IMG/VR virus record: IMGVR_UViG_3300032323_001958
Coordinates: 1 to 20,028 of that record
Reading direction: 5' to 3' (one strand)
DNA: 20,028 bases
Source: a virus
Under the pieces are notes generated by a model. That model saw only the letters and a program-made list of their open reading frames with translations. It searched no databases and was not told where the DNA came from. Shown piece after piece: positions 840 through 14,789 of the stretch. Within the stretch, counting starts at the first letter, position 1; each line of letters starts with the position of its first letter. A program made the position numbers and the translations under genes.

Positions 840-1649
840 ATGTCAGATAAACAAGAACAAGTGCAGATTACTCTGTCGAGAGAACAACTAAGTCAGTGGA
901 AGTTGTTTATTGCAGTTCCGTGTTATGACAGCACAGTCACAGAGCCTTTCATGATGTCTACAATTAGGACAATTATGAAGTTCAATGCTCTTGGGCTACA
1001 GACTGTTCTTGCGACTGTCTCAGATTCATTAGTTACTAGAGCGCGAAACACACTTGTCGCCAAGTTCATGGCCCAGACAGAGTACACGCATATGATGTTC
1101 ATTGACGCCGACATTGAATATGACCCAGACTCTATTATGAAGCTTTTGTGGCACAATAAGGACATCATCGCGGCAGCGTACCCAATCAAGCAAATTGAGT
1201 GGGAAAAGGTTGAGAAACGAGTTAAGAACGGCGAAGGCGCTGCTGAAGCAGCAAAGAATTCATCACGATATGCGTTTTCATTGATAAAACCAGGCCAGAC
1301 GCAGATCTCGATGTCTAACGGTGCGTTTGCCGCCTACGATCTTGGTACCGGCTTTATGTTGATTAAGCGCGAGACGATACAAACAATGTTTGACAAATAT
1401 CCAGAGCTTAGATATGTAGACGACACAGGCGCACTTAGCGAAGAAGAAAAGAAATGCACCTACGCTCTATTTGACACCTTAATTGATGAAAACGGTCGCT
1501 ATCTTTCTGAAGACTACGCGTTTTGTAGATACTGGCAACGCCTTGGCGGCCTAACGTGGCTTGATCCTTCTATTGATCTAACGCACGTAGGCAGGTACAG
1601 GTACGTCGGCGACGCGCAAAAATACGCTGATCAATTTATTGAAAAGTAA
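840..1649 (+). CDS. GT-A type glycosyltransferase-like protein
   Basis: 269 residues, ATG start preceded by GGGAG at a good distance. After a ~20-residue leader the protein shows a GT-A Rossmann-like core: KLFIAVPCYDS (residues 21-31) as the first strand and nucleotide-binding loop, RARNTLVAKFM (67-77), then the acidic metal-binding signature MMFIDADIEYD (85-95) with D89-A90-D91 as the DxD-like motif. A later GTGFMLIKRETI segment resembles the acceptor-side region of family 2-like enzymes. Small proteins of this type are common in phages. Likely reaction: transfer of a sugar from a nucleotide sugar to an unknown acceptor in the infected cell. It is the first of six decoration genes after the tail protein. 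Donor and acceptor cannot be read from the sequence; the family call is fairly secure. Confidence 0.75.
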   Translation: MSDKQEQVQITLSREQLSQWKLFIAVPCYDSTVTEPFMMSTIRTIMKFNALGLQTVLATVSDSLVTRARNTLVAKFMAQTEYTHMMFIDADIEYDPDSIMKLLWHNKDIIAAAYPIKQIEWEKVEKRVKNGEGAAEAAKNSSRYAFSLIKPGQTQISMSNGAFAAYDLGTGFMLIKRETIQTMFDKYPELRYVDDTGALSEEEKKCTYALFDTLIDENGRYLSEDYAFCRYWQRLGGLTWLDPSIDLTHVGRYRYVGDAQKYADQFIEK

Positions 1650-1655
1650 ATCGTG

Positions 1656-1674
1656 GATACAGCGGTGCTGTATC
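1656..1674 (+). other. Perfect 8-bp stem, 3-nt loop hairpin just after a stop codon
   Basis: GATACAGC, loop GGT, GCTGTATC: a perfect inverted repeat beginning 7 bases after the TAA of the 840-1649 gene, in the 49-base gap before the next gene. No T-run follows, so it is not a canonical intrinsic terminator. It may act as an RNA 3'-end stabiliser, processing site or weak attenuator. A second hairpin of the same geometry sits at 14202-14220. Confidence 0.55.
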
Positions 1675-1698
1675 ACTAAACCATAGTAGGATTCTTTT

Positions 1699-2256
1699 AT
1701 GAAAACTTTAGACTATAACCGCAGCGGACTGCTATCAGTGCTGCCAAATAACTCAGTATGTGCAGAAGTCGGCGTGTGGCTCGGTGAGTATTCTGAAGCG
1801 ATCATTAACCACAACAATCCAAAAGAGCTGTATCTCATTGACATGTGGGATGTTCAAGAGTTTAAGACAGCGTCGTACGCGGCGTATTACATAAACTTCA
1901 CTGAAACAGAACAGTATTTAGGTGTCTATAATCACCTGTTGCAGAAGTTTTCTCCGTATGAAAATGTCAAATTGGTGCGAAGCGACTCAGTTGAGGCGTC
2001 GCGTAGCTTTGAAGATGACTTTTTTGACTGGGTGTACATTGACGCAGATCATTCATATGAAGGCGTAACAAAAGATCTAAATGCGTACTATAAAAAAGTA
2101 AAGACCGGCGGATTCCTGTGCGGGCACGACTGGAACGCTCCTGAAGATGATGGAGTAAACGACGCCGTACTAGACTTTGTAAAAAGCAACGATGTCGAGT
2201 TCATTGGAATAACAAACGAGCAAAATTGGTCTTCTTACGTCCTAAAAAAGAACTAA
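1699..2256 (+). CDS. Class I SAM-dependent methyltransferase (Methyltransf_24-like)
   Basis: 185 residues, ATG start with a weak AGGA upstream. Motif I is AEVGVWLGEYS (residues 22-32), the glycine-poor SAM-binding loop typical of the Methyltransf_24 group; the acidic end of strand 2 is LIDMWD (46-51), the residue that binds the SAM ribose. FFDWVYIDADHSYEGV (108-123) is the hallmark motif IV of this family, and GGFLCGHDW follows. Related enzymes O-methylate sugars such as rhamnose or other small hydroxyl groups. Its position between glycosyltransferases and a sulfotransferase-like gene suggests a sugar or glycan substrate. It could instead act on a small metabolite; protein or nucleic-acid methylation is less likely for this family. 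The end is separated by 35 bases from the ATG of the next gene, another methyltransferase. Confidence 0.8.
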   Translation: MKTLDYNRSGLLSVLPNNSVCAEVGVWLGEYSEAIINHNNPKELYLIDMWDVQEFKTASYAAYYINFTETEQYLGVYNHLLQKFSPYENVKLVRSDSVEASRSFEDDFFDWVYIDADHSYEGVTKDLNAYYKKVKTGGFLCGHDWNAPEDDGVNDAVLDFVKSNDVEFIGITNEQNWSSYVLKKN

Positions 2257-2291
2257 AGACGCATCTACTATCTGCATTAGAAAGACTTACT

Positions 2292-2918
2292 ATGAAATCA
2301 AATTCAAGTAACATAGGGTACGAATACAACACAGCACTAGCCAAGGTATTGTTTGACTCCTTTGAAAATGCGCTCTCAGACAAAGGTGCGTACCACTGCT
2401 ACCACGAAGTATACTCACACATATTCTTTAAAAGAACAGTTAGATCTTTTCTTGAAATCGGGTTGTTTCTTTCTGACCACGTCGCTACAACAGATCTTCA
2501 TGCATGGGCAAACGTATTTCCAGATGCAAAGATTTACGGTGCAGATCGCAAAAAACACCTGCTGTTTGACACTGAAAAAATATCCACATTTTACGTAGAC
2601 CAAGACTCAAAAGAGTCTTTAGAGACGCTAAAGAAGAACCTTCCTGGCAAGGTAGATGCAATTTTAGACGACGCATCTCATATGTTTGATAAGAGCATCA
2701 ATACATTTGAAAGTATGTATGAAATTGTTGCCGACGGCGGAGTGTACATGATTGAAGATATTCTTGTCAATAGAACTGGCGCAGACTGGGAAAAGCACGC
2801 CCAAAGCGCAGAACAACTTATTGAGTACTTTTCTAAATCAGGCCTAGACTACGAGCTTTTCCATACTTCGGCAACGCACAGAGTAGGCGATAGCGCAGTC
2901 ATTGCTGTTTACAAATAA
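2292..2918 (+). CDS. SAM methyltransferase-like protein, second of the cluster
   Basis: 208 residues from the ATG at 2292, with AGAAAG about 8 bases upstream. The frame is open back to a TTG at 2226, but that start would overlap the upstream gene by 31 bases and lacks a ribosome-binding site. A motif I-like FLEIGLFLSD (53-62), an acidic strand end YGADRK (82-87), and VDAILDDASHMFDKS (121-135) followed by YEIVADGGVYMIEDI match the layout of cephalosporin-hydroxylase/Methyltransf_24-type enzymes. In these, D-D-x-S-H replaces D-A-D-H and can bind a metal. It differs clearly in sequence from the 1699-2256 gene, so the pair is not a recent duplication. Likely substrate: another position on the same glycan. 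Substrate unknown. Confidence 0.7.
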   Translation: MKSNSSNIGYEYNTALAKVLFDSFENALSDKGAYHCYHEVYSHIFFKRTVRSFLEIGLFLSDHVATTDLHAWANVFPDAKIYGADRKKHLLFDTEKISTFYVDQDSKESLETLKKNLPGKVDAILDDASHMFDKSINTFESMYEIVADGGVYMIEDILVNRTGADWEKHAQSAEQLIEYFSKSGLDYELFHTSATHRVGDSAVIAVYK

Positions 2919-2936
2919 AGTAGACAACACCTATCA

Positions 2937-3542
2937 ATGAATAACTCTGAGTACGAAGCTGTAAGAAAATACAATAAGCTTATTCTCAATCTAAGTCTTC
3001 CAAGAACTGCTACACAGTCGTTTCATTTAGCAGCTAAGCTTGGCGGACGGTCTTCAGTTCACTTTAACGAGTTCGAGTACATATTTAACTACCAAGATGA
3101 AGAAACTAGATGGAATGAATTCAAAAAAGTACTGAGCGGCTATGAGGTTGTTTCCGACCAGCCAATTCATTTTTTCGTTGAGAATTTGATGATAAACTAC
3201 GGAAGTAGTACGTTTGTTCTTGTTGAAAGAGATGTAGATTTGTGGGTGCAGTCAACTAAAAAACTTTGGGCAGGCATTGTTGTTCACAAAATAAATGAAC
3301 AACCTCCAATTGAACTTATAAAGTATGTAACTAAACGTGACTACAGTTCTTTTTCTCAGATTTCTGATGAAGTATTGCGAGAAGTCCACCGCAAGTATCA
3401 CTATGACGTAGAGCATCTTGCAAAAAAGCACGGTATAGAACTTATAAAGGCTTCATTAGATGACGGATCGTACGACGCGCTAGTACGCGACCTCTTTGGA
3501 GTACCTAGCCCGCATGAGGACTGGGTAAGAACAGCGTTTTAG
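2937..3542 (+). CDS. Sulfotransferase-like P-loop protein
   Basis: 201 residues, ATG at 2937, 18 bases after the previous stop, no strong ribosome-binding site. LNLSLPRTATQSF (residues 17-29) matches the 5'-phosphosulfate-binding loop of PAPS-dependent sulfotransferases (compare the GLPRTGT-type loop). FVLVERDVDLWVQS (93-106) matches the 3'-phosphate-binding region, with R98 and S106 in the expected places. ~200 residues fits the small bacterial sulfotransferase families. Likely reaction: transfer of sulfate from host-derived PAPS to a hydroxyl, here perhaps on a glycan made by the adjacent glycosyltransferases. The usual catalytic Lys/Arg in the loop is represented by R23. Sulfotransferases are unusual in phages. 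It could be an inactive relative or act on another acceptor; the family call is likely but not certain. Confidence 0.6.
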   Translation: MNNSEYEAVRKYNKLILNLSLPRTATQSFHLAAKLGGRSSVHFNEFEYIFNYQDEETRWNEFKKVLSGYEVVSDQPIHFFVENLMINYGSSTFVLVERDVDLWVQSTKKLWAGIVVHKINEQPPIELIKYVTKRDYSSFSQISDEVLREVHRKYHYDVEHLAKKHGIELIKASLDDGSYDALVRDLFGVPSPHEDWVRTAF

Positions 3543-3584
3543 ATAATATGTACTAGGCGTCAAACGACATAAGAGGCAAGAAAA

Positions 3585-5324
3585 ATGAAAATAGCAGTAT
3601 ACACGATAGCTCTTAATGAAAAGAAGTTTGTTGACTCGTGGTACAACTCTGCAAAAGAAGCAGACTACTTGCTTATTGCTGACACTGGCTCAAGGGACGG
3701 CACAGTTGAATACGCAAAAGAACTTGGAATCAACGTAGCGCAAGTCATTGTCAAGCCTTGGCGATTTGACGACGCACGGAATGCCTCTCTTGCGCTACTT
3801 CCAGCTGATATTGACATGTGTGTATCGCTTGACATGGACGAGGTGCTTGTGTCAGGCTGGAGAGAGCATCTTGAATCTACACCAGAAGGAACAACTCGGC
3901 CAAGGTACAAATATGTGTGGAGTTGGAATGACGACGGCTCAGAAGGATTAGTCTACGGCGGCGATAAAATTCACGCCCGCTTTGGATACAGATGGGTTCA
4001 CCCAGTTCACGAAGTATTGGCTTCAACTGATGTTGAAGTGCAAAATTGGATATCACTTGAAATAAATCACCACCCAGACAACACAAAGTCACGTGGTCAG
4101 TACCTTCCATTACTCAAAAAAGCTGTTGATGAGCGTCCTAATGACGACCGCAATACTTATTACTACGCAAGAGAATTGTTTTTTCATGGAAGAAACGAAG
4201 AGGCTACCGTTGAGTTTAAGAGACACCTTGCTCTTCCAAACGCGCAATGGCGGCCTGAACGTGCAGCATCAATGCGGTACTTAGCAAAAATAGAAAAACA
4301 CGAAACGGAAACATGGCTACTTCGTGCAGCCGCTGAAGCGCCAGAGTTTCGCGAACCATGGGTCGAGCTTGCATTTCACTACTATGAAAATCACAAATGG
4401 GAAAACTGCCTATCATCTGTAAAAAGAGCGCTAACAATTAAAGAAAAACCTCTTGTGTACCTCAACGATGCTTCGGCTTGGGGCTCACTTCCGCACGACC
4501 TAGCAAGCATTGCTGCGTGGAACCTTGGGCTAAGCGCCGAGGCTATTTCGCATCTGCGTTCTGCAATTCTTATTGAGCCAAATAACGAAAGATTTCAAGA
4601 GAATCTTGCGATGATGCTTAGAACTACGTACCACGAAAAAATCACTGCTGTTATTCCAAGCAAATCAAACGCTGATGGACTTCTAAGTGTAGTAGAAAAG
4701 CTCCAAGACGACGCCCAAGTTGAAACAATTGTTGTTGTAGCCGATGGAGAGTTGGCGCACAACGCATACAGTAAGCTTCTTGCAGATAAGAAAAAAGTTG
4801 TTCTAAAACAAGTTCCTCTTGGGGTCGGTATTCATGCCATGTGGAACCTTGGAATTGATGTGGCAATTGAAAACAACACAAGTGCAGCGTTTATAAATGA
4901 TGACGTAATTCTTGGTGAAAACTGCATAGGAGCTCTTGGATCTCTTCTTGAATATGACAAATCAATTGGCATTGTGTGCCCCGGCTACGACTATCGTAAG
5001 TTTGCTGACATCACTCAGGACGTAGACACTGTATGCAATAGTCGGTACGACGGCACAGGTGGGCTTGGTGGATTTTGTATGGTGCTGTCAAAAGATCTTA
5101 CGAAAAAATGGAGATTTGACGAGTCAATGAAGTGGTGGTACGGCGATAATGACGTACTTTTATGGGTTCTTAGAATACAACAACGTCGCGCGGCTATTGC
5201 AAGCATTGCGCGCTGCAGTGGAAATAGTTCAGCTACAATTGAAAATGATCGTCCAGACAACTTTGTTCAGACTGTTCAAGATGATAAGCTTAAGTTTTAC
5301 ATTAAATGGAATTTGGAGGATTAA
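3585..5324 (+). CDS. Two-domain glycosyltransferase with TPR-like middle
   Basis: 579 residues, ATG preceded by GAGGCAAG. Domain 1 (about 1-150) is a family 2 glycosyltransferase: YTIALNEKKF (6-15), ADTGSRDGT (32-40), PWRFDDARN (58-66) and the DxD-type LDMDE (82-86), the pattern of WaaE/SunS-like enzymes. Residues ~185-345 are helical with repeated YYYAREL, MRYLAKIE, WVELAFHYYE and AWNLGLS segments spaced like TPR repeats. Domain 2 (about 352-579) is a second GT-A fold: ITAVIPSKSN (353-362), FINDDVIL (437-444) as metal site, GGLGGFCMVLS (492-502), and YGDNDVLLW (519-527) as the acceptor/catalytic region. The architecture suggests consecutive sugar additions on a polypeptide or glycan, with the TPR part holding the acceptor. 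It ends directly against the next start codon, so the two are co-translated. Confidence 0.82.
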   Translation: MKIAVYTIALNEKKFVDSWYNSAKEADYLLIADTGSRDGTVEYAKELGINVAQVIVKPWRFDDARNASLALLPADIDMCVSLDMDEVLVSGWREHLESTPEGTTRPRYKYVWSWNDDGSEGLVYGGDKIHARFGYRWVHPVHEVLASTDVEVQNWISLEINHHPDNTKSRGQYLPLLKKAVDERPNDDRNTYYYARELFFHGRNEEATVEFKRHLALPNAQWRPERAASMRYLAKIEKHETETWLLRAAAEAPEFREPWVELAFHYYENHKWENCLSSVKRALTIKEKPLVYLNDASAWGSLPHDLASIAAWNLGLSAEAISHLRSAILIEPNNERFQENLAMMLRTTYHEKITAVIPSKSNADGLLSVVEKLQDDAQVETIVVVADGELAHNAYSKLLADKKKVVLKQVPLGVGIHAMWNLGIDVAIENNTSAAFINDDVILGENCIGALGSLLEYDKSIGIVCPGYDYRKFADITQDVDTVCNSRYDGTGGLGGFCMVLSKDLTKKWRFDESMKWWYGDNDVLLWVLRIQQRRAAIASIARCSGNSSATIENDRPDNFVQTVQDDKLKFYIKWNLED

Positions 5325-5840
5325 ATGCACGGCAGTGTTCTTGACTGGGTGTCCGAGTCTTTAGCGATACGCAAAACATTTGTATCAAAAGAAACTGGAG
5401 TACACGTTCTTGAGATTGGAAGTCTTGATATTAACGGAAGCGTTAGATTTCTTTTCAACGAGTTGATCTCAGATGGCGGGTCGTTTTTTGGTATTGATAT
5501 TCAAGAAGGTCCTGGAGTTGACCTTGTAGCCGACGCCAGCGTGTACCAAAGCGAAAAACAGTACGACATCGTCGTATGCGCTGAAGTCTTTGAGCATACA
5601 GCTGTTTGGCCAAAAATTGTAAAAAATGCGCATTCTCTTCTTATTCCAGGAGGAATGTTCATTGCAACAATGGCAGGCGAAGGCCGTGCGCCACACTCAG
5701 CTATTGATGAGAACCCAATTAGAAGCTGGGAATACTATAAAAATGTTACAGGTCCAGACTTAAAAGAAAAGCTTTTTATTTTTTCAGATTGGGAAGTTAA
5801 CGTAAAAGACACAGACACGCGATGCTGGGCCGTTAAGTAG
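5325..5840 (+). CDS. Class I SAM methyltransferase (Methyltransf_11-like)
   Basis: 171 residues. The ATG directly follows the TAA of the glycosyltransferase, with GGAGG inside the end of that gene, so start choice is secure. VHVLEIGSLDING (27-38) is motif I with E30 and G32; FFGIDIQEG (54-62) carries the ribose-binding acid; DLVADAS (66-72) follows; YDIVVCAEVFEHTAVWP (80-96) is the post-I/motif IV region with the EVFEH signature of small-molecule methyltransferases. LLIPGGMFIAT completes the fold. It is the third methyltransferase of the + block and the last gene before the strand switch; its stop overlaps the WhiB stop on the other strand by 8 bases. Substrate probably a sugar or polar metabolite, unknown. 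Confidence 0.8.
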   Translation: MHGSVLDWVSESLAIRKTFVSKETGVHVLEIGSLDINGSVRFLFNELISDGGSFFGIDIQEGPGVDLVADASVYQSEKQYDIVVCAEVFEHTAVWPKIVKNAHSLLIPGGMFIATMAGEGRAPHSAIDENPIRSWEYYKNVTGPDLKEKLFIFSDWEVNVKDTDTRCWAVK

Positions 5841-6363
5841 TTTTTTCTTTCTTTGCCTTTTTTAAGCTAGCTTTAGCTTTTTCAGTTTTTTTCTTTTCAG
5901 TTTTTGATTCTTTGTCGGCATGGTATGCAGTTACTGCGTTTGCGCTTGTACGGCTTCTCCAAACAAATTGACACTCATCGCAGACAACAAGTTTCATTGT
6001 TGTCCACCTTCCTCCTTCTGGAGACTCAGCGACAACTACGCGAAGCTTGCTAGGCCTAGCTCCACAGTGTGGGCAGTTTGGAAACCTTTTGCGCCTAACT
6101 TCTTGGCCAGTGTAAGAAACTGAAAGAGCGCGGCGAAGCTCGCCTTCGTCTTTTCCTCCCCACACTCCATGTATTTGTTTATTCTCAAGCGCCCACTTAA
6201 GGCATTGACTTCTAACAGGACATGTGTAGCACAAGTTTTTTGCAGTGTATTTTTCTTTTGGTACTTTAGAAAACCAATACTTTTTGATGTGAGCATTTTC
6301 TGGAAGTGCGCACGCAGCATCGTCCATCCAAGCCACATCGCTTAAGCCTCCAGGCTTTTTCAC
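5833..6363 (-). CDS. WhiB-family Fe-S regulator with C-terminal zinc-ribbon-like extension
   Basis: 176 residues, GTG start at 6363 that overlaps the upstream stop in GTGA. The N-terminal half is a WhiB domain: C18, then C45-x2-C48-x5-C54 for the [4Fe-4S] cluster and GVWGG (66-70), the turn that contacts the sigma factor. WhiB proteins are usually 80-130 residues. Here an added segment carries CPHC (97-100) and CDEC (128-131), a probable zinc ribbon, and the last 26 residues contain 12 lysines. Known of the family: WhiB proteins bind the primary sigma factor region 4 and alter promoter choice, and several actinophages carry them to redirect or repress host transcription. Inference: the extra ribbon and basic tail add direct DNA or RNA binding. 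Co-transcribed with the small unknown gene upstream. Confidence 0.9.
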   Translation of the reverse strand: MKKPGGLSDVAWMDDAACALPENAHIKKYWFSKVPKEKYTAKNLCYTCPVRSQCLKWALENKQIHGVWGGKDEGELRRALSVSYTGQEVRRKRFPNCPHCGARPSKLRVVVAESPEGGRWTTMKLVVCDECQFVWRSRTSANAVTAYHADKESKTEKKKTEKAKASLKKAKKEKTT

Positions 6364-6814: not shown

Positions 6815-7321
6815 TCAAACTGTATAGCCGTCCTGATGAGGCCATAAGTAGTCGTAGGTAGGAGGCTTAGAACCAGTGTCCTCTGGCCAGTTGAACTGTT
6901 TGTACCAGTCGTAGTTTTTGCACAATAGCGCTGTACGGTGGGTCGAGCACAGGTCGGCATAGTACTTTGTATCTGACATCCAAGGTGGGACAACTAGGTC
7001 AGGCGAGATGCGACCAAGCTCGAGAGCTTTGTCGTACGTGCGATATGTTTTGTCAAGAAGCGTAGACTTGTAGCCACGAGCGCGCCACTCAAAATACGTT
7101 GCTGAAATGTACGAAACAAGCAACGTCTCGTAGCCACGCCACATACGAACAACGGGGTGGTTTGACCAACCTTTGGGATCTCGGTGGTTGCCGTCTGGGT
7201 CAAGATTGCACATGTTAAGCAGGCACTGCCACGCCTCGAGCGTCTGCTTGTGTAGACGCTTGTTGTCAAGGTGGTGAGCAGTAAGCTCGAATGACTCAGT
7301 GTTAGTAAGAAATGATTGCAT
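6815..7321 (-). CDS. Pyrimidine-dimer DNA glycosylase (Pyr_excise, DenV-related)
   Basis: 168 residues, ATG with AGGAC six bases upstream. MQSFLTNTESFE (1-12) followed by HHLDNKRLHKQTLEAWQ (16-32), GWSNHPVVRMWRGYE (51-65), EWRARGY (78-84) and a C-terminal THRTALLCKNYDWY match the bacterial and phage Pyr_excise family (the MSMEG_6728-like branch related to T4 endonuclease V). The H-x-RMWRGYE block and the C-terminal aromatic/basic motif are the family hallmarks. Known function: removal of UV-induced cyclobutane pyrimidine dimers by a glycosylase/AP-lyase reaction. For a phage in sunlit water this would repair the incoming or replicating genome. It has its own promoter-like region (7347-7352) and an inverted repeat overlapping the start, so it is probably a separate transcription unit start rather than only a read-through gene. 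Confidence 0.82.
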   Translation of the reverse strand: MQSFLTNTESFELTAHHLDNKRLHKQTLEAWQCLLNMCNLDPDGNHRDPKGWSNHPVVRMWRGYETLLVSYISATYFEWRARGYKSTLLDKTYRTYDKALELGRISPDLVVPPWMSDTKYYADLCSTHRTALLCKNYDWYKQFNWPEDTGSKPPTYDYLWPHQDGYTV

Positions 7322-7389: not shown

Positions 7390-8637
7390 CTAGCTTTCTT
7401 TTGTGTAGTACTTCTTCTTAACTGCTTGGCGGCTAAAACCCTTGTCTGTATTGACTAACCACTCGCGGTCGCCAATTAGCTCGCCCTGTGGTCCGTTTGG
7501 CTGACCTTCAAGCGCGGCCTTCGCTGCATCAGCAATCCACTCTGCAGCCTGTACTGCAACTGCCTTGCCCCATGTTGACGACAATGGCGAGTAGTCTTTT
7601 GCTTCAGTAAACGCCCAGCTATCTGGAAGACCCTGCAGACGTGCTGCCTCGCGGTGAGTAATACGGCGCTCAAGTGTTGGGTGGATCACATGATCTAGCG
7701 CGCCGCCTGTCATAACGTGCGCCCACGAGTTACCGTCCCAGCGGCATGGCATCGTGAATCCCATGTTGAAATCATTAGCGCGAAGCTTTTCTTCTTGCGC
7801 AAGCCAAGACTGTGGAAACTGGTCATTGTTCTTTGCAACAGCTTCTCGAAGAGCCTTACTTACAGGTGTCATTGGCTTCCAACCTTCGTTGCCAAGAATG
7901 TCAAAGATTTCTTTAATGCGCTGTCCTTCAAGGTTTTGCTTGTTCATGTGGCCATCAACTACACCACTTTCATTGCGCAAGTGCGCAACAAACTTTGATG
8001 GAGCCTTGCTGTATGGCTGCGGATCCCATGACAACTCAAGATTCTCAAGGTCGCCAATAACGTCCATCATTGTCGGCATTTCATCAGGAGCAATAGCCTG
8101 CGCGCCGAATGGCATTCCTTTTTCAACGGCCGTCCAGAAGTAGCGCATGCGATATGAAAATCCACCAACCTGGAGGTTGTTCATTTTGACATGATACAGG
8201 TCGTACTCTTTTCCAGAAAGCTCTTCAACCATGTCGCGGTACTTAATCATTGCATCACGGCCTTGAGTAAGCGCTTGCTGCACACACTCAAAGATAATCA
8301 TCTTTGGTTTGATCCGCGCAGCATACTTCATAAAAGCGCGTGTATGTTCGTGTGCCTTTGCGTCAGGTCCACGGTTTGCAGGACCAGACCATACCGACCA
8401 ACCAGAGCATGGCGGGCAACCAAGCACGATGTCAGCCTTGTTGTCTGGCCATTCATTTGGATCATCTGAAAAGAATGAAGACCAGTTGTCGCCAAGGTGT
8501 TGTCGGTTTAACTCAGCAACTCGGTTGCCAAAGTTCAAAGTTCCTGTGCGGACATTCATATCAATGCCCTTGTTTACAAAGCCAAGGCTCATGAAGCCAG
8601 CGAGGCCGTTGCAGTCGTTAAAAGTAAATTCTGACAT
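7390..8637 (-). CDS. DNA (cytosine-5) methyltransferase, orphan
   Basis: 415 residues, ATG with GGAGAA upstream. C5-methyltransferase motifs in order: motif I-like FNDCNGLAGFMSLGF (6-20, a degenerate version of the FxGxGG loop), motif IV GCPPCSGWS (73-81) with the catalytic C77, motif VI FECVQ (116-120, usually ENV), motif VIII GGFSYRMRYFW (158-168) with the R-x-R pair, a target-recognition region of about 200-325, motif IX RRITHREAARLQGLPDSW (324-341) and motif X STWGKAVAVQAAEWI (353-367; GNA is usual). All catalytic features are present, so it is probably active. No restriction enzyme is encoded nearby; as in other phages it would protect the genome from host nucleases by methylating a specific sequence. 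Specificity cannot be read. A modifying enzyme with another outcome is conceivable because of the nearby glycosyltransferases. Confidence 0.87.
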   Translation of the reverse strand: MSEFTFNDCNGLAGFMSLGFVNKGIDMNVRTGTLNFGNRVAELNRQHLGDNWSSFFSDDPNEWPDNKADIVLGCPPCSGWSVWSGPANRGPDAKAHEHTRAFMKYAARIKPKMIIFECVQQALTQGRDAMIKYRDMVEELSGKEYDLYHVKMNNLQVGGFSYRMRYFWTAVEKGMPFGAQAIAPDEMPTMMDVIGDLENLELSWDPQPYSKAPSKFVAHLRNESGVVDGHMNKQNLEGQRIKEIFDILGNEGWKPMTPVSKALREAVAKNNDQFPQSWLAQEEKLRANDFNMGFTMPCRWDGNSWAHVMTGGALDHVIHPTLERRITHREAARLQGLPDSWAFTEAKDYSPLSSTWGKAVAVQAAEWIADAAKAALEGQPNGPQGELIGDREWLVNTDKGFSRQAVKKKYYTKES

Positions 8638-9169: not shown

Positions 9170-9405
9170 AAGAGTGCTCTTTTCTCCAGCGAGTACGGTG
9201 AGTGATGTGTTTCTGGTAATTCTGGAAGTATACCGTCAATGCTGCGAACAATCACGTCGCCTCCACCAACTGCAAGTACTTCGCAAAAGCGTCCGTTGTG
9301 TATTTCTCCAACGACACCTCGATATGCGTCTAGTTTGACGCGAACAATATCGCCAACATTTGTATCTTTTAGCGATACTTCACTCCAAGTTACTTCTGAG
9401 GGCAT
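9166..9405 (-). CDS. Small SH3/KOW-like protein of unknown function
   Basis: 79 residues from the ATG at 9405. The frame also has an ATG at 9420, but AGGAG at 9411-9415 lies five bases before the 9405 start, so the shorter form is preferred. It holds a compact beta-barrel-like segment, VGDIVRVKLDAYRGVVGEI, then FCEVLAVGGGDVIVRSIDG; the GDxVRV...GxVGEI pattern resembles KOW/SH3-like barrels of nucleic-acid or protein binding proteins. Function not known. The start overlaps the end of the MazG-like gene by 16 bases and its stop overlaps the next start in ATGA. It could be an adaptor or a small host-takeover protein, but nothing in the sequence proves this. Confidence 0.65.
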   Translation of the reverse strand: MPSEVTWSEVSLKDTNVGDIVRVKLDAYRGVVGEIHNGRFCEVLAVGGGDVIVRSIDGILPELPETHHSPYSLEKRALL

Positions 9406-9851
9406 GCTGTCTCCTGACATGTTGAAGTGTCAAAGTCGTCAAGTGCTCGAGAGCATGAGCCGCACTTTACGCCTTCAGCTTTTACTTTGTATCCTTTAAG
9501 TTGACGCTTACGATTTACTTCCATCTTGTTTACATAGTATGCGTCAAGTTGCTCGTCTGTACCGCCTACCGCGCAAATAATGTTTGCTACGAAGTGGAGA
9601 ATATCAACGCACTCTTTGACTACTGCTTCACGGTTGACATATGGATCGTCGTGCTGCCAAGGCTTCCACGAGATCTCTTTGCGAACTTCTGCAAGTTCGT
9701 CGTCAATTGCGAGCATATTCCATCGCAGATACTCGATGATGTTGTTGAGCTTATATGGCTGATCGCCCTCAAACTTGTGGTAGATGACTCCATAAGCTTC
9801 TTCCTGAAGCTCTTTTGTTTTCTTGAGCCAATCGTTGAATAGCACTCCCAT
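9390..9851 (-). CDS. MazG/dUTPase-2-like nucleotide pyrophosphatase with C-terminal cysteine cluster
   Basis: 153 residues, ATG in a 1-base TAATG overlap with the upstream gene. The all-alpha NTP pyrophosphatase signature is visible: DDELAEVRKE (50-59) giving E52, E55 and E59, then KECVDILHFVANI (79-91) giving E80 and D83, which together bind Mg2+ and the triphosphate. YVNKMEVNRKRQLKGY (106-121) is the C-terminal helix with the KM-x-N-x-x-R pattern of dimeric dUTPases. Probable reaction: hydrolysis of dUTP or another (d)NTP to the monophosphate, lowering dUTP during phage DNA synthesis or clearing damaged nucleotides. Unusual is an added tail with C130-x2-C133 and C145-x4-C150, probably a small zinc site. 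Substrate (dUTP or other) cannot be decided. Confidence 0.75.
   Translation of the reverse strand: MGVLFNDWLKKTKELQEEAYGVIYHKFEGDQPYKLNNIIEYLRWNMLAIDDELAEVRKEISWKPWQHDDPYVNREAVVKECVDILHFVANIICAVGGTDEQLDAYYVNKMEVNRKRQLKGYKVKAEGVKCGSCSRALDDFDTSTCQETACPQK
9411..9415 (-). promoter_or_regulatory. Shine-Dalgarno AGGAG deciding the start at 9405
   Basis: AGGAG on the - strand, five bases before the ATG at 9405. The alternative ATG at 9420 has no such site, so translation most likely begins at 9405. Confidence 0.6.
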
Positions 9852-10858
9852 TAGATTCCTATCTCTTTCTTTAGTTGTTGTACTGACTCGTATGTTCCTG
9901 GCACGCTGTTCATGTACTGATCTCGTTGAGCAACAGCAATTTCATATCTGTCGAGAACAGACATTTGCTCTAGTCCTGACGCTAGATGATTCCAGGCCTC
10001 TCCGATCTTTGATGCTAATCTCCACTCTGTAGCTACGGGAGTAAGCGTGTTCATCGCTTGAGCAAATCTTGATGACCACCACAACAACTTATCGTCATGA
10101 GGTCCGATAATTACTCCAAGAGAACTTGCAATGTTGTCTTGAACGTGCGCATCAGTCCACGTTCTGTTTTCTCTAGCCGCAGTTGACGGGTACATTAGAT
10201 GTTCTAATACGCCAGCGCACCATTTTGTTTTTGGGCTGTCAATGACCCAGTACTTTTGTCTATTTGTATTTATAGACATGTTTTGTTTTACAAGCATTGA
10301 GTCAAGGTTTACTCCAGAAAACGACGAACCCATTGACTCTGGAATACCAGAAGAATCAGACACCTTTTGATCAATCGGCAAGGCTGGGTAAATAGTTGTT
10401 GGCCATTTTTCAGAAAGCAATAGCGACGCTCCCCGAATAACCTTGTCTTTTGCCTTGGCGTTCTTCATGATTTCTTTGTACTCTTTTCGCATCGAGTACA
10501 GCTGCTTCGTAAGTCGTGAATTGTCTTTTTCAATTGACCGAAGGCTTGCATGGATCTTTGAAGGCTCTGGAGCATCAACGAAAAGACGTAGTTTTTTACT
10601 TCCATACAGCGTCTCAATTGCTGCAAGAACTCCGTAAGCTTTGTTCGCTGTCATGCTAAGAACTGGCGCAACTCCAACTAAAACAGAGTCATACTCATCA
10701 AAATGTTTTGCTGTCCACGATACGGCGGGATCGGCCCAGACTACCTCAACACTACTTTCAACAAGAGCGTCATTCAACATTCCAGCAAACGAGGCATTTC
10801 GCCTGCTTAATGAGTATGAGGACTGCGATGCAGTCATTCCGCATATGAGTACTTTCAT
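9851..10858 (-). CDS. Putative GT-B-like glycosyltransferase-related protein
   Basis: 335 residues, ATG in an ATGA overlap with the nucleotidyltransferase. The N-terminus MKVLICGMTASQSS looks like the first strand and loop of a Rossmann domain, followed by DSVLVGVAPVLSMTANKAYG and LRLFVDAPEPSKIH, a layout seen in N-terminal domains of GT-B enzymes. Residues ~110-135 are a basic helix that may be a coiled coil. The C-terminal half has LGVIIGPHDDKLLWWSSRFA and then ATEWRLASKIGEAWNHLA, like the donor-binding domain of GT-B enzymes, although the usual E-x7-E pair is not evident. Placement between an NTP-sugar nucleotidyltransferase and pyrophosphatase genes supports a transferase role. It could equally be a structural homologue without activity; the assignment is tentative. 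Confidence 0.45.
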   Translation of the reverse strand: MKVLICGMTASQSSYSLSRRNASFAGMLNDALVESSVEVVWADPAVSWTAKHFDEYDSVLVGVAPVLSMTANKAYGVLAAIETLYGSKKLRLFVDAPEPSKIHASLRSIEKDNSRLTKQLYSMRKEYKEIMKNAKAKDKVIRGASLLLSEKWPTTIYPALPIDQKVSDSSGIPESMGSSFSGVNLDSMLVKQNMSINTNRQKYWVIDSPKTKWCAGVLEHLMYPSTAARENRTWTDAHVQDNIASSLGVIIGPHDDKLLWWSSRFAQAMNTLTPVATEWRLASKIGEAWNHLASGLEQMSVLDRYEIAVAQRDQYMNSVPGTYESVQQLKKEIGI

Positions 10859-11586
10859 GCCAGGTCACCATTCTTACTTGCAATGTACGCAGACGGTATA
10901 CCGACATCAAAAGCTTTGACGTCGTATAGATGTGTTGGCCATCGCATAATCATGTTTAGGTACGGACCAATTTTCATTTCAGATGACTCTTTGCGATTTG
11001 CCCATTCATTTGAAAGTATGTCAAAGGCTCTACCCGTCTGAAAGACCACGGGGCCGCACCATACTTTTACATTTCCATCAATCCAAATATCGTCTATTCC
11101 GACTGGAGTTCCTTCAACGAACTTGTAGTTTTCATTGTCTTCATGTGCGTGCTGTATTCGCGTAAACCTAGATGCTTGCTCGAGTGTCACTGTTCGTACG
11201 CCAATTGCGTCGGTCTTGTTTACTCTGCTACTAAAAGCCATGTCAACTACGATGTCTTGATCCATCACGTTATCGCTCATAAGTAGCATTGTTTGGTCGT
11301 GCACCGCGTCCGACAGTCCAATCATTGTCGCGTGCCCTGGTCCCGCTGGCTCTTCTTGAACAACCAACCGCACCCACTTTGAGTATGAAGAAAGTGCAGC
11401 ACCAATGTCGTCATAGTTTGCTGCAGACGCGACCACTGTTACTCGCTCAACGCCAGAGGCTGAAGCGTATTCAACAGCGTATGCAACGAGCGGCATTCCA
11501 TTGATCTCAAGCAGTGGCTTGTAGAACGGCTTAGCAAAGCCTTCCATCCGCTGGCCACGGCCTGCGGCAAGAATTACTGCTTCCAA
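10855..11586 (-). CDS. Sugar- or alcohol-phosphate nucleotidyltransferase
   Basis: 243 residues. The start is a TTG at 11586: no earlier start exists in frame, AGGA lies about nine bases upstream, and the conserved loop at residues 6-13 needs this start. LAAGRGQRM (6-14) with K19 and KPLLEING (23-30) is the nucleotide-triphosphate binding signature of the RmlA/GlmU/LicC superfamily. PAGPGHATMIGL and LLMSDNVMD supply the base-contacting and metal (Asp) segments. Reaction: NTP + X-phosphate to NDP-X + PPi, where X is a sugar or an alcohol such as choline. Length matches short RmlA-N/LicC-type enzymes without the hexapeptide domain. Its neighbours, a kinase and a HAD phosphatase, suggest a complete activation path. 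The ends overlap the phosphatase gene by 13 bases and the downstream GT-like gene by four. Confidence 0.82.
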   Translation of the reverse strand: MEAVILAAGRGQRMEGFAKPFYKPLLEINGMPLVAYAVEYASASGVERVTVVASAANYDDIGAALSSYSKWVRLVVQEEPAGPGHATMIGLSDAVHDQTMLLMSDNVMDQDIVVDMAFSSRVNKTDAIGVRTVTLEQASRFTRIQHAHEDNENYKFVEGTPVGIDDIWIDGNVKVWCGPVVFQTGRAFDILSNEWANRKESSEMKIGPYLNMIMRWPTHLYDVKAFDVGIPSAYIASKNGDLA

Positions 11587-12092
11587 CGCCAGTCCTGCTT
11601 AGCCCAAATAAAATCCCAACCTGCTTCTTCCGCTGGACCTTTTCCTTCAATCCTGTCGTCAATGTACACACCAGATGAGTCAAGGCTTTCAAGTATTTCC
11701 TTGCGAGCGTCAGTCGTGGTGCTTGCAGCAACAAGGTTATCTGCGTTAAGCCCTAGCTCTTGCAGTATTACTGTTGCTGTTGCCTTAGCAGCGCCAGTGA
11801 CATAGAACACTCGAGCTCTCATGTCGTGTTCAAGCGCACGCATGATCTCTGCAAAAGGAAGCGCGTTCTTTAATGCAGCCCCTGCGCGAAGCACTTCAAT
11901 GTATGCCTCTGTCTTCTTTTCGTGAAGCTCGCGAGCTTTTTCGTGGGAACCGACAGCTGACGGCAGCCATGTCTGCCACGGGTGCCCCCAGGCTTGGACA
12001 GGCATATCAATCCCGACATATTTGTAAGACTCAATTACAAGGCTTCTTGAATCAACAAGAACACCGTCAATGTCTGAGCACCATGTTGCCAT
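11574..12092 (-). CDS. HAD-superfamily phosphatase
   Basis: 172 residues from the ATG at 12092, chosen because AAAGGAAA (12097-12104) precedes it and the catalytic motif then lies at residues 6-14; an in-frame ATG at 12107 overlaps the previous gene. HAD motifs: SDIDGVLVDS (6-15) with nucleophile D7 and acid/base D9, VFYVTGA (95-101) with T99, K131 in DARKEI, and YIDDR (143-147) with D145/D146 for Mg2+. The cap is small. Reaction: hydrolysis of a phosphomonoester, perhaps a sugar bisphosphate as in heptose activation (kinase, phosphatase, nucleotidyltransferase), or a regulatory or 3'-phosphate removal as in polynucleotide kinases. The gene is placed between kinase and nucleotidyltransferase, which favours the small-molecule path. 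Confidence 0.82.
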   Translation of the reverse strand: MATWCSDIDGVLVDSRSLVIESYKYVGIDMPVQAWGHPWQTWLPSAVGSHEKARELHEKKTEAYIEVLRAGAALKNALPFAEIMRALEHDMRARVFYVTGAAKATATVILQELGLNADNLVAASTTTDARKEILESLDSSGVYIDDRIEGKGPAEEAGWDFIWAKQDWRWKQ

Positions 12093-12093
12093 G

Positions 12094-12855
12094 TTATTTC
12101 CTTTCAATAGCTTTTTCTAAGACTTCAATTACACGAGGTAGCGCGTCTGGCATGTTTCGTTTCACGTACGGAATTGCGCGCATTACGTGAATGACTGCCC
12201 AAGACTCACCAACCTCAAATAGTTCTTCGTCGTTTACAACATCTGCAATGTCGTCGTGGCTGTACGCAAGCATTCCATTGTTGTACTTTGCGTGTTCCCA
12301 GCCGTATGCGCTTTGAAGCATCTTTCCAACATCAACTGCTGGAGAGTCTGGGACGACCTCAGTCGCTCTGATCGGATCAATCAACACGTTTCCATAGCCT
12401 GGGCGAAACATCACGTTTTCAGAAGTCGGGTCGCCGTGCGTCAGCGCGTGCTTTAGTCGGTATGCCCCAACAGCGGCCTTTGTTGCGTCAGCGATGATTG
12501 CGTCTTTTGCCGCGTTGCTGATAAGCGTGTCAAGATGCCGATCAATAGTTCCCTGCATCTTCTCCTTGAGAAGCTTGTGAGTATTTGTCGTCGGCGGAAC
12601 TGCTGGAGGCTGGGACCACACGTGACGTAGTAGCGCAACATGAACAAACGAGTTATCAATTGTCCAGTAGTCAATGTACTCAAGTTTTTCCATGACATAG
12701 CCGTCGTCAAGCAGGCTTACAATATTTGGAAATACGTGACTCCCATGCTGAATAAGCCACTCGCCTTGCTCGCGTGTTCGCTCTGGAATTCCACCTGACT
12801 TGGTGACAGTGCCATCGCCGTTGTCAATGACAACTGCACCAGATAGACCCCTCAC
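12094..12855 (-). CDS. APH/choline-kinase-like small-molecule kinase
   Basis: 253 residues, GTG start in a GTGA overlap with the upstream glycosyltransferase; no separate Shine-Dalgarno. Protein-kinase-like fold of the aminoglycoside phosphotransferase/choline kinase group: GLSGAVVID (3-11) as the glycine loop, K19 as the candidate ATP-binding lysine, MEKLEYIDYW (55-64) as hinge, LTHGDPTSENVMF (138-150) with H140, catalytic D142 and N147, and VLIDP (157-161) with D160 as the Mg2+ ligand. Reaction: ATP-dependent phosphorylation of an alcohol, sugar or aminosugar. With a LicC-like nucleotidyltransferase nearby, a LicA-like phosphocholine or a sugar-1-phosphate path is possible. Antibiotic resistance is unlikely here, given the phage operon context. 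Confidence 0.78.
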   Translation of the reverse strand: MRGLSGAVVIDNGDGTVTKSGGIPERTREQGEWLIQHGSHVFPNIVSLLDDGYVMEKLEYIDYWTIDNSFVHVALLRHVWSQPPAVPPTTNTHKLLKEKMQGTIDRHLDTLISNAAKDAIIADATKAAVGAYRLKHALTHGDPTSENVMFRPGYGNVLIDPIRATEVVPDSPAVDVGKMLQSAYGWEHAKYNNGMLAYSHDDIADVVNDEELFEVGESWAVIHVMRAIPYVKRNMPDALPRVIEVLEKAIERK

Positions 12856-14102
12856 GAAAAAGCGCTTTCAATCAATATCTCTGCGCTCTTGCGTGGATCA
12901 TTTCTTGTCCTGAGTACTTCACGATTATGCTTTGCAATTTCAAAGCGATCAGCATCTGAAATAGCAAGACACTGTTCAAACGCTTCTTTGCACTTGCGAA
13001 TAATCTCAAGACCATCTGCCTGAACAAGTCGTGACTGCGTTGGCGATCCTTTGTACCAGTCAAGAACAAGCATTCTGAACTGAGGATCAGACAGGTGGCC
13101 AGGAACAATACACATTGCACCAGCATCTGCTGCTTCAAGCGACGAGTATTCAACAAGTCCCCGAGCAAAGTTGTGTGCCGTAAGATTCATATGAACACGA
13201 AAGCGCGATGCAATTGCAGCAGAGTCCATGTAGTTTCCAAGATAGCGAACAAGCGCGTGTCCAGGAATACGAGCGTCCCACGGATAAGGAGTAATGATGT
13301 TTCCATCCGCACCCTTAGTCGGGTCAACTCTCTCTGCATAGCGCTTTGTCTGCGCGCCAAAGTGATCACGAAGCTGCTCGTAAACAATGTATGTTGGCGA
13401 TGGGCCAAGGCCTACTGAGCATGATCCCCAGATTTCAACAGTGACGTGCTCTGGAAGCTGCGCGCCAGCCAACGCGACAACTGGTTGTCCTTTGTTATAG
13501 ATAAAACGACCAGAAGTGCCCACGGTCCAATCATTTGTAATCGGCGCGTCAATGTCAAACTTTGGAATGTACGGCATGCAGCCTTTGATCCAGTCCATAG
13601 TCTTAAAAAGCTCATTGCTGTCGCTGGCTGAGTCATCGCTCATTGTCACAAGCTTTGTGCCGCGTGATGGTGACTCAAGAAGCTGTGGCACAAACGGAAT
13701 ATCTTTTTCTGGATAAAACGATCCATGCAGTGACGTTGTCCACTTTGTCTTTGTTCTGCGTAGCGCGTCAACATACTCTGGAAGAACGGCTTGGCCTGTC
13801 TTTGCAGACTCTTTGATTGCTGTTTTGTCGTGCAAAGGGACTTTGATCTCTGGCAATACAATCATGTCGTATGTGTCAAGCGTCTCAACCAGGTTTGCTG
13901 TTTTCACAACAACATTTGGCGCTTCACTCCACCACCTTCCGCCAGGCTGCGGCTTTCCCCAAGATGCTCGTGTCTTTCCACTCTTTGTAAATGAAACAAC
14001 ATCGCACTCATGTCCGAGTTGTTGAAAACCGTATCGTAAGCGAAATGCCCAGGCAGTCGGTCCTTTTACTCCTGGTTCTGGTTCAAGAATTGCTACGCGC
14101 AT
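12852..14102 (-). CDS. GT-B glycosyltransferase (GT4-like)
   Basis: 416 residues, ATG with GGAGAG upstream. MRVAILEPEPGVKGPTAWAF (1-20) is the N-terminal strand and Gly-rich loop, with a paired WAFRLRYGFQQLGHECDVV helix and strand typical of GT4-type enzymes. DMIVLPEIKVP is the next strand; VGTSGRFIYNKGQPVV is the linker and first C-terminal strand, like the GR-x-x-x-KG pattern. ARGLVEYSSLEAADAGAMC carries the E-x3/4-E-A-x-x-x-G donor-binding region close to the E-x7-E motif. Probably transfers the sugar or polyol activated by the three genes that follow. It opens the second decoration cassette. Acceptor unknown: virion protein, modified base, or host envelope. Confidence 0.78.
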   Translation of the reverse strand: MRVAILEPEPGVKGPTAWAFRLRYGFQQLGHECDVVSFTKSGKTRASWGKPQPGGRWWSEAPNVVVKTANLVETLDTYDMIVLPEIKVPLHDKTAIKESAKTGQAVLPEYVDALRRTKTKWTTSLHGSFYPEKDIPFVPQLLESPSRGTKLVTMSDDSASDSNELFKTMDWIKGCMPYIPKFDIDAPITNDWTVGTSGRFIYNKGQPVVALAGAQLPEHVTVEIWGSCSVGLGPSPTYIVYEQLRDHFGAQTKRYAERVDPTKGADGNIITPYPWDARIPGHALVRYLGNYMDSAAIASRFRVHMNLTAHNFARGLVEYSSLEAADAGAMCIVPGHLSDPQFRMLVLDWYKGSPTQSRLVQADGLEIIRKCKEAFEQCLAISDADRFEIAKHNREVLRTRNDPRKSAEILIESAFS

Positions 14103-14201: not shown

Positions 14202-14220
14202 GTTCTGATTAGATCAGAAC
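14202..14220 (-). other. Perfect 8-bp stem, 3-nt loop hairpin overlapping the SSB stop codon
   Basis: GTTCTGAT, loop TAG on the + strand, ATCAGAAC. It includes the TGA stop (14214-14216) of the SSB-like gene. No U-run follows on either strand. Same geometry as the hairpin at 1656-1674, also directly at a gene end. Confidence 0.5.
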
Positions 14221-14789
14221 GGTGCTGGCGGCGGAGTGTCCGTCGCTGGCGCTGCAGGTGCAGGGGCTGCTGCTTGCGGTGCTGGTGCTGCCGCTGGTGC
14301 AGGGGCCGGTGCTGGTGCTGGTGCTGGTGCTGGTGCAGGGGCTGGAGCCGCTGCAACAACTGGCGCAGCCGCCGCAGCATTTGCTACGGTGTAGTACGCT
14401 TTGATTTCGTTCTTCTTCTGACCTTGCCAAGTGCGTGAACCGACCTGTGCACGGAAGAACTTGTTCTTCATTGCAGCTTCAATTTGCGCGTTGGTTGGGC
14501 TGGTCGCAAAGAACTCACGGCCAAGACCGAGTGCGTTCATCTTGCGGAAGAAGATTCCAAGTGCTGTTGGGTTGTCAGTCGAGACAACCAGGTTGTCCCA
14601 GACAAGACGCTTTGCATGTGCGCCAGTCTGAACCTGTGCCTTGACCTTGAACATTGTCTTTCCAGACTGCGAAACAGCAGCGGTGGCCTCAACGATTTGA
14701 AGATCGTAGTCGCCATCCGGTAGTGGATCATATCCGCCAGCGGTGTCTCCTGCTTCCTTGATTAGGTCGCCCCAATTGAGGGTACTCAT
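14214..14789 (-). CDS. Single-strand DNA-binding protein, phage DUF669/gp2.5-like
   Basis: 191 residues, ATG with a modest AGGTAA upstream. Residues ~1-130 form a soluble domain with LPDGDYDLQIVEATAAVSQS and MFKVKAQVQTG like the OB-fold of phage DUF669 single-strand binding proteins, followed by NPTALGIFFRKMNALGLG and KNKFFRAQVGSRTWQG. Residues ~136-185 are almost only Ala and Pro in an (AP)n pattern, a stiff or disordered linker. The protein ends TPPPAPF; the final Pro-Phe recalls the PF tip through which SSBs recruit partners, though acidic residues are almost absent. Context with Sak4-like ATPase, nuclease, helicase and polymerase strongly supports a role in replication or recombination. 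Confidence 0.72.
   Translation of the reverse strand: MSTLNWGDLIKEAGDTAGGYDPLPDGDYDLQIVEATAAVSQSGKTMFKVKAQVQTGAHAKRLVWDNLVVSTDNPTALGIFFRKMNALGLGREFFATSPTNAQIEAAMKNKFFRAQVGSRTWQGQKKNEIKAYYTVANAAAAAPVVAAAPAPAPAPAPAPAPAPAPAAAPAPQAAAPAPAAPATDTPPPAPF
14308..14337. repeat. Hexanucleotide tandem repeat (GGTGCT)4 + GGTGCA
   Basis: Four perfect copies of GGTGCT plus one variant on the + strand, encoding the (Ala-Pro)n linker of the SSB-like protein on the - strand; imperfect copies extend on both sides (about 14270-14350). Such in-frame hexamers can change copy number by slippage without frameshift, altering linker length. Confidence 0.8.

Follow-up and report, generated by a model that had tools for sequence, protein, structure and literature searches.

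The 20,028-nucleotide virus record IMGVR_UViG_3300032323_001958, analysed here over its full length and referred to as the window, is a 20 kb sequence standing alone, whose virus appears to have freshwater actinobacteria as its host. On its minus strand, inside a DNA replication and nucleotide operon, the genes of a kinase, a HAD phosphatase and a nucleotidyltransferase (NT) form a compact cassette between two glycosyltransferase (GT) genes. We consider it rather likely that this locus is part of a cytosine hypermodification system resembling that of phage T4, for which the phage makes its own sugar donor. The likeliest targets of the GTs are chemically altered cytosines in the phage DNA, to which they would add sugars; the sugars so attached appear to be a shield against host defences. 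This kind of system is known; the form found in the window was not met in the literature searched. Most known cases of glycosylated cytosine come from T4-like phages, whose routes to unusual sugar donors are not yet settled. In actinobacterial phages, enzymes of these same kinds occur as a cassette linked to one GT allele and absent with another, offering separate, small enzymes open to assay.

Organisation of the locus

Inspection of the open reading frames (ORFs) places five neighbouring minus-strand genes at 9851-14102, in the order GT4-APH-HAD-NT-X335 (Table 1), as an earlier note on this DNA had described them. Among the overlaps by which that note joined them, those of GT4 with the APH-type kinase gene (4 bases), of HAD with NT (13 bases) and of NT with X335 (4 bases) are present; that of APH with HAD exists only with a TTG start at 12107, and the ATG at 12092, which is the start position of the HAD protein in most relatives, leaves a 1-base gap. 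Measured against L009, the cassette-bearing nearest relative, dN/dS is 0.017-0.09 for all five genes, the highest value being that of X335 (0.18 against L003).

Table 1. Coordinates of the principal features in the window and of the corresponding module in Gordonia phage GMA2
Feature	Position	Strand	Basis and remarks
GT4: GT-B glycosyltransferase, AGT/GT4-like, 416 aa	12852..14102	-	AlphaFold2 (AF2) fold; predicted to glycosylate modified cytosine in DNA with a sugar made by the phage
APH-fold small-molecule kinase, 253 aa, predicted sugar 1-kinase	12094..12855	-	Pfam APH, phrog_21938, invariant catalytic residues
HAD phosphatase, 172 aa, predicted sugar-phosphate phosphatase	11574..12092	-	Pfam Hydrolase, motifs, ATG at 12092
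Sugar-1-phosphate nucleotidyltransferase (NT), 243 aa, TTG start	10855..11586	-	NTP_transf_3, phrog_3980, PDB profile matches
X335: second GT-B protein, BGT/SenB-like, 335 aa, role uncertain	9851..10858	-	AF2 fold, structure match
dUTPase_2/MazG-type nucleotide pyrophosphatase, predicted dCTP and/or dUTP removal	9390..9851	-	PF08761; co-occurs with module
C5-cytosine DNA methyltransferase (C5-MT) homologue	7390..8637	-	PF00145 2e-22; catalytic motifs kept; co-inherited with module
GMA2 module	51538-57162 (GTs to C5-MT region) and 72861-75363 (kinase-TS-deaminase cluster, annotated hypothetical) of the GMA2 record

The kinase, phosphatase and nucleotidyltransferase

The enzymatic identities given to the cassette by the earlier note are borne out both by Pfam, in which the kinase scores 25.4 bits for APH (cut-off 23.2), the phosphatase 29.0 for HAD (Hydrolase; cut-off 26.4) and the NT 54.8 for NTP_transf_3 (cut-off 27), and by the active sites. 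Across 11-12 diverse relatives the kinase conserves the motif H140-G-D142...N147...D160, the HAD protein D7xD9, T99 and D145/D146, and the NT GxGQRM, K23, D105 and D227. The sole phage-family match of the kinase is phrog_21938 (E 0.002), to which RB69 ORF052c belongs (E 1e-116), and the NT matches phrog_3980. In PDB profile searches the NT retrieves sugar-1-phosphate nucleotidyltransferases and also LicC (1jyk), for which the match is limited to the first 51 positions (E 4e-4); such searches yielded no usable match for the kinase, HAD or GT4. The kinase has no NCBIfam match. None of its host relatives sought in GTDB genomes was confirmed, so that no cellular pathway is indicated by analogy.

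The chemical logic that we propose for these enzymes is that of MupP-AmgK-MurU cell-wall recycling, which comprises a HAD phosphatase, an APH-fold anomeric kinase and a nucleotidyltransferase. By this analogy, HAD would take a phosphate off a sugar phosphate of the host, the kinase would rephosphorylate the sugar at its anomeric carbon, and the NT would convert the resulting sugar-1-phosphate into a nucleoside diphosphate (NDP)-sugar. The window proteins are not themselves members of the MurNAc pathway, the NT reaching 43 bits where MurU requires 250. Nor does the likeness to heptose activation (HddA-GmhB-HddC), drawn in the earlier note from gene order, survive: HddA is a GHMP kinase, the window kinase is of the APH type, and the HddC model gives 31 bits against a cut-off of 300.

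The same note had also compared the cassette with LicA/LicC choline activation. APH-fold kinases and short NTs do serve choline and alditol activation, and LicC is, as said, among the NT matches, so that the attached group might be an amino alcohol or a polyol, activated in the manner of LicA/LicC or CDP-glycerol and put on DNA or on a glycan. Against this stand the fold of GT4, which is that of a nucleotide-sugar GT-B enzyme, and the nearest phage families of the kinase and NT, which lie in the RB69 arabinose locus. We regard such a group as very improbable; to choline in particular nothing points, and the kinase is assigned to the APH superfamily only.

Exchange of the cassette with the GT4 allele

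In every relative examined the kinase, HAD and NT genes are one unit tied to one GT4 allele. Where GT4 is at least 76% identical to that of the window, all three are always present as far as the contig extends; where it is less than 60% identical, all three are always lacking. In helicase, nuclease and ATPase the phage L057 is sister to the window clade (99/97 support), with 95% identity to the window in the ATPase and 82% in the dUTPase_2 protein; between these two genes, however, it has a GT4 of 58% and an X335 of 45% identity, and no cassette. The GT4 proteins of L057 and L060 form one clade (100/100), a pairing rejected by the core genes (approximately unbiased test, p 5.7e-17), and the region from GT4 to X335 has therefore been exchanged as a block. 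Such an exchange fits a donor pathway that is matched to its transferase.

In the phage DSL-LC01 the same slot holds, in order, a GT, a UDP-galactopyranose mutase and X335 (L022:5850-7986). Taken together with the tie between cassette and GT allele, this suggests that the identity of the sugar passes between phages in modular form. More tentatively, the sugar could be one new to DNA, supplied by a self-contained phage salvage route, its type being swapped by exchange of the GT-plus-activation block. As a separate observation, the mutase beside the GT suggests a galactofuranosyl donor for DSL-LC01 itself.

Co-inheritance with predicted enzymes of cytosine modification

Viral contigs were scanned with GT4, X335, the kinase and the NT, and the loci were merged into contig groups by a shared exact 400-mer. 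In class A (15 contig groups) the order is GT4-APH-HAD-NT-X335-dUTPase_2-...-C5-MT wherever the sequence covers it; class B (5 groups, including Micrococcus phage Kurnik, counted once) has GT4 without APH, HAD and NT; class C (7 groups) has a different GT with X335, dUTPase_2 and C5-MT; and class D (14 groups) has X335 only. The co-occurrence expected of all five genes thus holds for the kinase-HAD-NT unit and one GT4 allele, and fails for X335, which in class D is found without the others.

The module has partners beyond the five genes first described: the dUTPase_2 enzyme (PF08761, 46 bits against a cut-off of 22.9) and the C5-MT, which always flank the cassette in relatives, and, just outside the window, a homologue of thymidylate synthase (TS) that resembles dCMP hydroxymethylases. 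In L036, whose core proteins are ~97% identical to those of the window, and in the other class A contigs long enough to cover the place, the DNA polymerase comes after a P-loop kinase, the TS homologue and a dCMP deaminase. TS homologue, dUTPase_2 and C5-MT, sought in whole records, are all present together with a first GT in 14 records (DSL-LC01, Kurnik and the long records of classes A to C) and all absent in 9, which belong to class D and range from 21 to 132 kb in length. For class A records outside the two TS searches, the TS homologue was read from their loci; the dUTPase_2 model misses Kurnik, which is counted by annotation only (a MazG-like gene). TS and C5-MT were positive in control genomes, dUTPase_2 in one control only and there below the cut-off. 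The distribution of the C5-MT, whose catalytic motifs are intact, coincides with that of the TS homologue and GT module (classes A-C).

A third, distant lineage with the module is Gordonia phage GMA2 (KR063281, L143/L144). Its genes for GT4-like Orf54, X335-like Orf53, dUTPase_2 Orf52 and C5-MT Orf51 follow one another as in the window (hhalign of Orf54 to GT4, 1e-11; of Orf53 to X335, 4e-23), and Orf56 is a second, class-C-like GT. The GMA2 gene annotated as thymidylate synthase is ThyX, and Orf72, a hypothetical protein by annotation, is the dCMP-type homologue; since a separate ThyX makes dTMP, the ThyA-type enzyme is likely to have another job. Both GMA2 and Kurnik are cultured, which makes the prediction of modified DNA testable; the available text of the papers on DSL-LC01 (PMC10611076) and GMA2 (PMC4524720) reports no base analysis.

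This genomic context bears on the acceptor, for which the earlier note had named virion protein or DNA. Glycans and small molecules are frequent targets of GT4-type enzymes, and a separate plus-strand island, with genes for glycosyltransferases, methyltransferases and a sulfotransferase, lies beside a glycine-rich protein gene, as might be expected if the donor decorated virion protein or a host surface glycan. The cassette, however, sits in the DNA replication/nucleotide operon and never occurs without the dCMP-hydroxymethylase-like enzyme, dUTPase_2 and C5-MT; the context speaks for DNA, and decoration of protein or glycan is improbable.

The probable modified nucleotide

At the positions of T4 gp42 R123, S169 and D179 the TS homologue has R, S and D, and the catalytic Cys148 is kept, in the freshwater relatives, DSL-LC01, Kurnik and GMA2 alike. 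In this family a deoxyribosyl substrate is reported to go with arginine and serine, and a cytosine base with aspartate, whose place is taken by asparagine in uracil enzymes (PMC5175136); the signature speaks to the substrate of the enzyme only, the choice between methyl and hydroxymethyl not being decided by sequence. The best PDB profile match is the CMP 5-hydroxymethylase MilA (1e-24), with true thymidylate synthases at 9e-19, and hhalign to T4 gp42 gives E 5e-13. A route through TET/JBP dioxygenases is not indicated, PF12851 having no match above the cut-off in 23 records or in GMA2.

Cytosine in DNA might also be the target with a handle other than 5-hydroxymethyl-dC, namely 5-hydroxy-dC, as in the 5-ara-dC of Mosigvirus, or 5-methyl-dC. 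TS-family enzymes yield 5-hydroxy-dCMP in RB69-like phages (PMC13390438), RB69 carries the same NT-kinase-HAD triad, and the C5-MT is co-inherited. RB69 ORF048c, which from TS homology and position is probably the counterpart of the 5-hydroxy-dCMP synthase of that study, has Q, N and F where the TS homologue retains N170, D171 and Y218 of T4 gp42 and Kurnik, and we consider these other handles unlikely.

The two glycosyltransferases

Neither GT4 nor X335 has a significant Pfam match, but their AF2 models (GT4, pLDDT 84 and pTM 0.85; X335, pLDDT 93) both have the GT-B fold attributed to them by the earlier note. GT4 matches T4 AGT (1y8z) with VIA Z 22.9 over 337 residues, and TarM, BshA and AGT tie within ~1 Z unit. 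The motif EYxxLE is common to GT4 and AGT, and their sequence match is weak, 4 of 1000 shuffles scoring as high; a match to the AGT His-Asp, proposed by MAFFT, was judged a misalignment. In a viral library the top match of GT4 is a GMA2 protein, and the top 12 include glycosyltransferases of phage SP-15 and two proteins that carry the annotation DNA alpha-GT.

For X335 the best structural match is T4 BGT (1qkj), with VIA Z 17.2 over 297 residues, SenB following slightly lower at 16.5. The invariant Asp95 of X335 (...LFVD) resembles BGT Asp100 (...YLFTD) by eye only, MAFFT having left the two unaligned. X335 may be a second DNA glycosyltransferase. It evolves faster than its neighbours, showing 69% identity where the other cassette proteins of the same phages exceed 90%, and this, together with its survival alone, may indicate a second function.

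The proposed pathway and its relation to known systems

In the T4-like scheme, the dUTPase_2 enzyme would clear dCTP to dCMP, the TS-family enzyme encoded upstream of the polymerase would add a one-carbon hydroxymethyl group to C5 of dCMP, and the neighbouring P-loop kinase together with cell enzymes would make the triphosphate, which would then be polymerised into DNA. GT4 would move the sugar from the donor made by the cassette onto the modified cytosine, and X335 may attach a sugar or lengthen one already present. With the T4 system (gp42, gp56, gp1, AGT, BGT) the phages share a TS with dCMP signature, a dUTPase/dCTPase-family enzyme and a nucleotide kinase, and the window likewise has one AGT-like and one BGT-like GT-B fold. 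T4, by contrast, takes host UDP-glucose and has no kinase-HAD-NT cassette, the C5-MT is co-inherited in the window phages, and the window GTs are not clear homologues of AGT and BGT by sequence.

The arabinosylation locus of RB69/NP (Mosigvirus) has an NTP-transferase, an APH-type kinase and a HAD-motif protein beside a TS-family enzyme and a nucleotide kinase (PMC6024577), and this triad recurs in the window, where the nearest phage family of the kinase is that of RB69 ORF052c. Profile comparison with the RB69 proteins gives 1.5e-4 for the kinase and 6.7e-5 for the NT, as single comparisons and not database E-values. The adjoining ORF051c has HAD motifs by eye and no Pfam match, and is listed with a phosphatase domain (PMC8056088). 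The two systems differ in the TS, which resembles T4 gp42 and not ORF048c, and in gene order, the window having three separate genes and two GTs in one block. The SIS-domain isomerase of RB69 (PF01380) is absent in 18 records while positive in all 14 control genomes, and without this counterpart arabinose is not specifically indicated; the arabinose pathway itself is described as not yet characterised (PMC13390438, 2026). Phage-encoded sugar activation for DNA modification, with GT/NT-like and phosphotransferase domains, is also reported for Shewanella phage Thanatos (TH1_060, TH1_063), with pentosyl-cytosine, where a phage UDP-xylose pyrophosphorylase has been shown; it differs in having a bifunctional protein and the separate pyrophosphorylase, and the available part of the report mentions no HAD protein (PMC12838424).

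Several points weigh against a T4-like system. The TS homologue, P-loop kinase and deaminase are seen in relatives, their positions lying outside the 20 kb record, and the conserved C5-MT has no place in the scheme, unless one guesses, for example, that it protects remaining cytosine. GT4 is equally like other GT4-family enzymes (VIA Z up to 23.9); X335 has no significant sequence match to T4 BGT, scoring no better than shuffles, and persists, with its invariant Asp95, in class D phages that lack the module. The core-gene tree allows class D to be read either as a single, weakly supported clade (56) or as two with good support, so that the co-inheritance amounts to few independent events, namely one or two losses, and physical linkage alone could also move cassette neighbours together.

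Other genes of the window

The plus-strand island (840-5840) comprises GT-A-like, three methyltransferase, sulfotransferase and GT2-TPR genes adjoining the glycine-rich protein gene; the corresponding place in DSL-LC01 (L022:13714-17787) holds a glycosyltransferase and a tryptophan halogenase. A pyrimidine dimer DNA glycosylase (Pfam Pyr_excise, T4 DenV family) is encoded at 6815-7321, and its gene is followed by a small ORF and then by WhiB (5833-6363). Just upstream of the cassette, at 14214-14789, lies the gene of a DUF669 protein whose tail is a long proline-alanine repeat.

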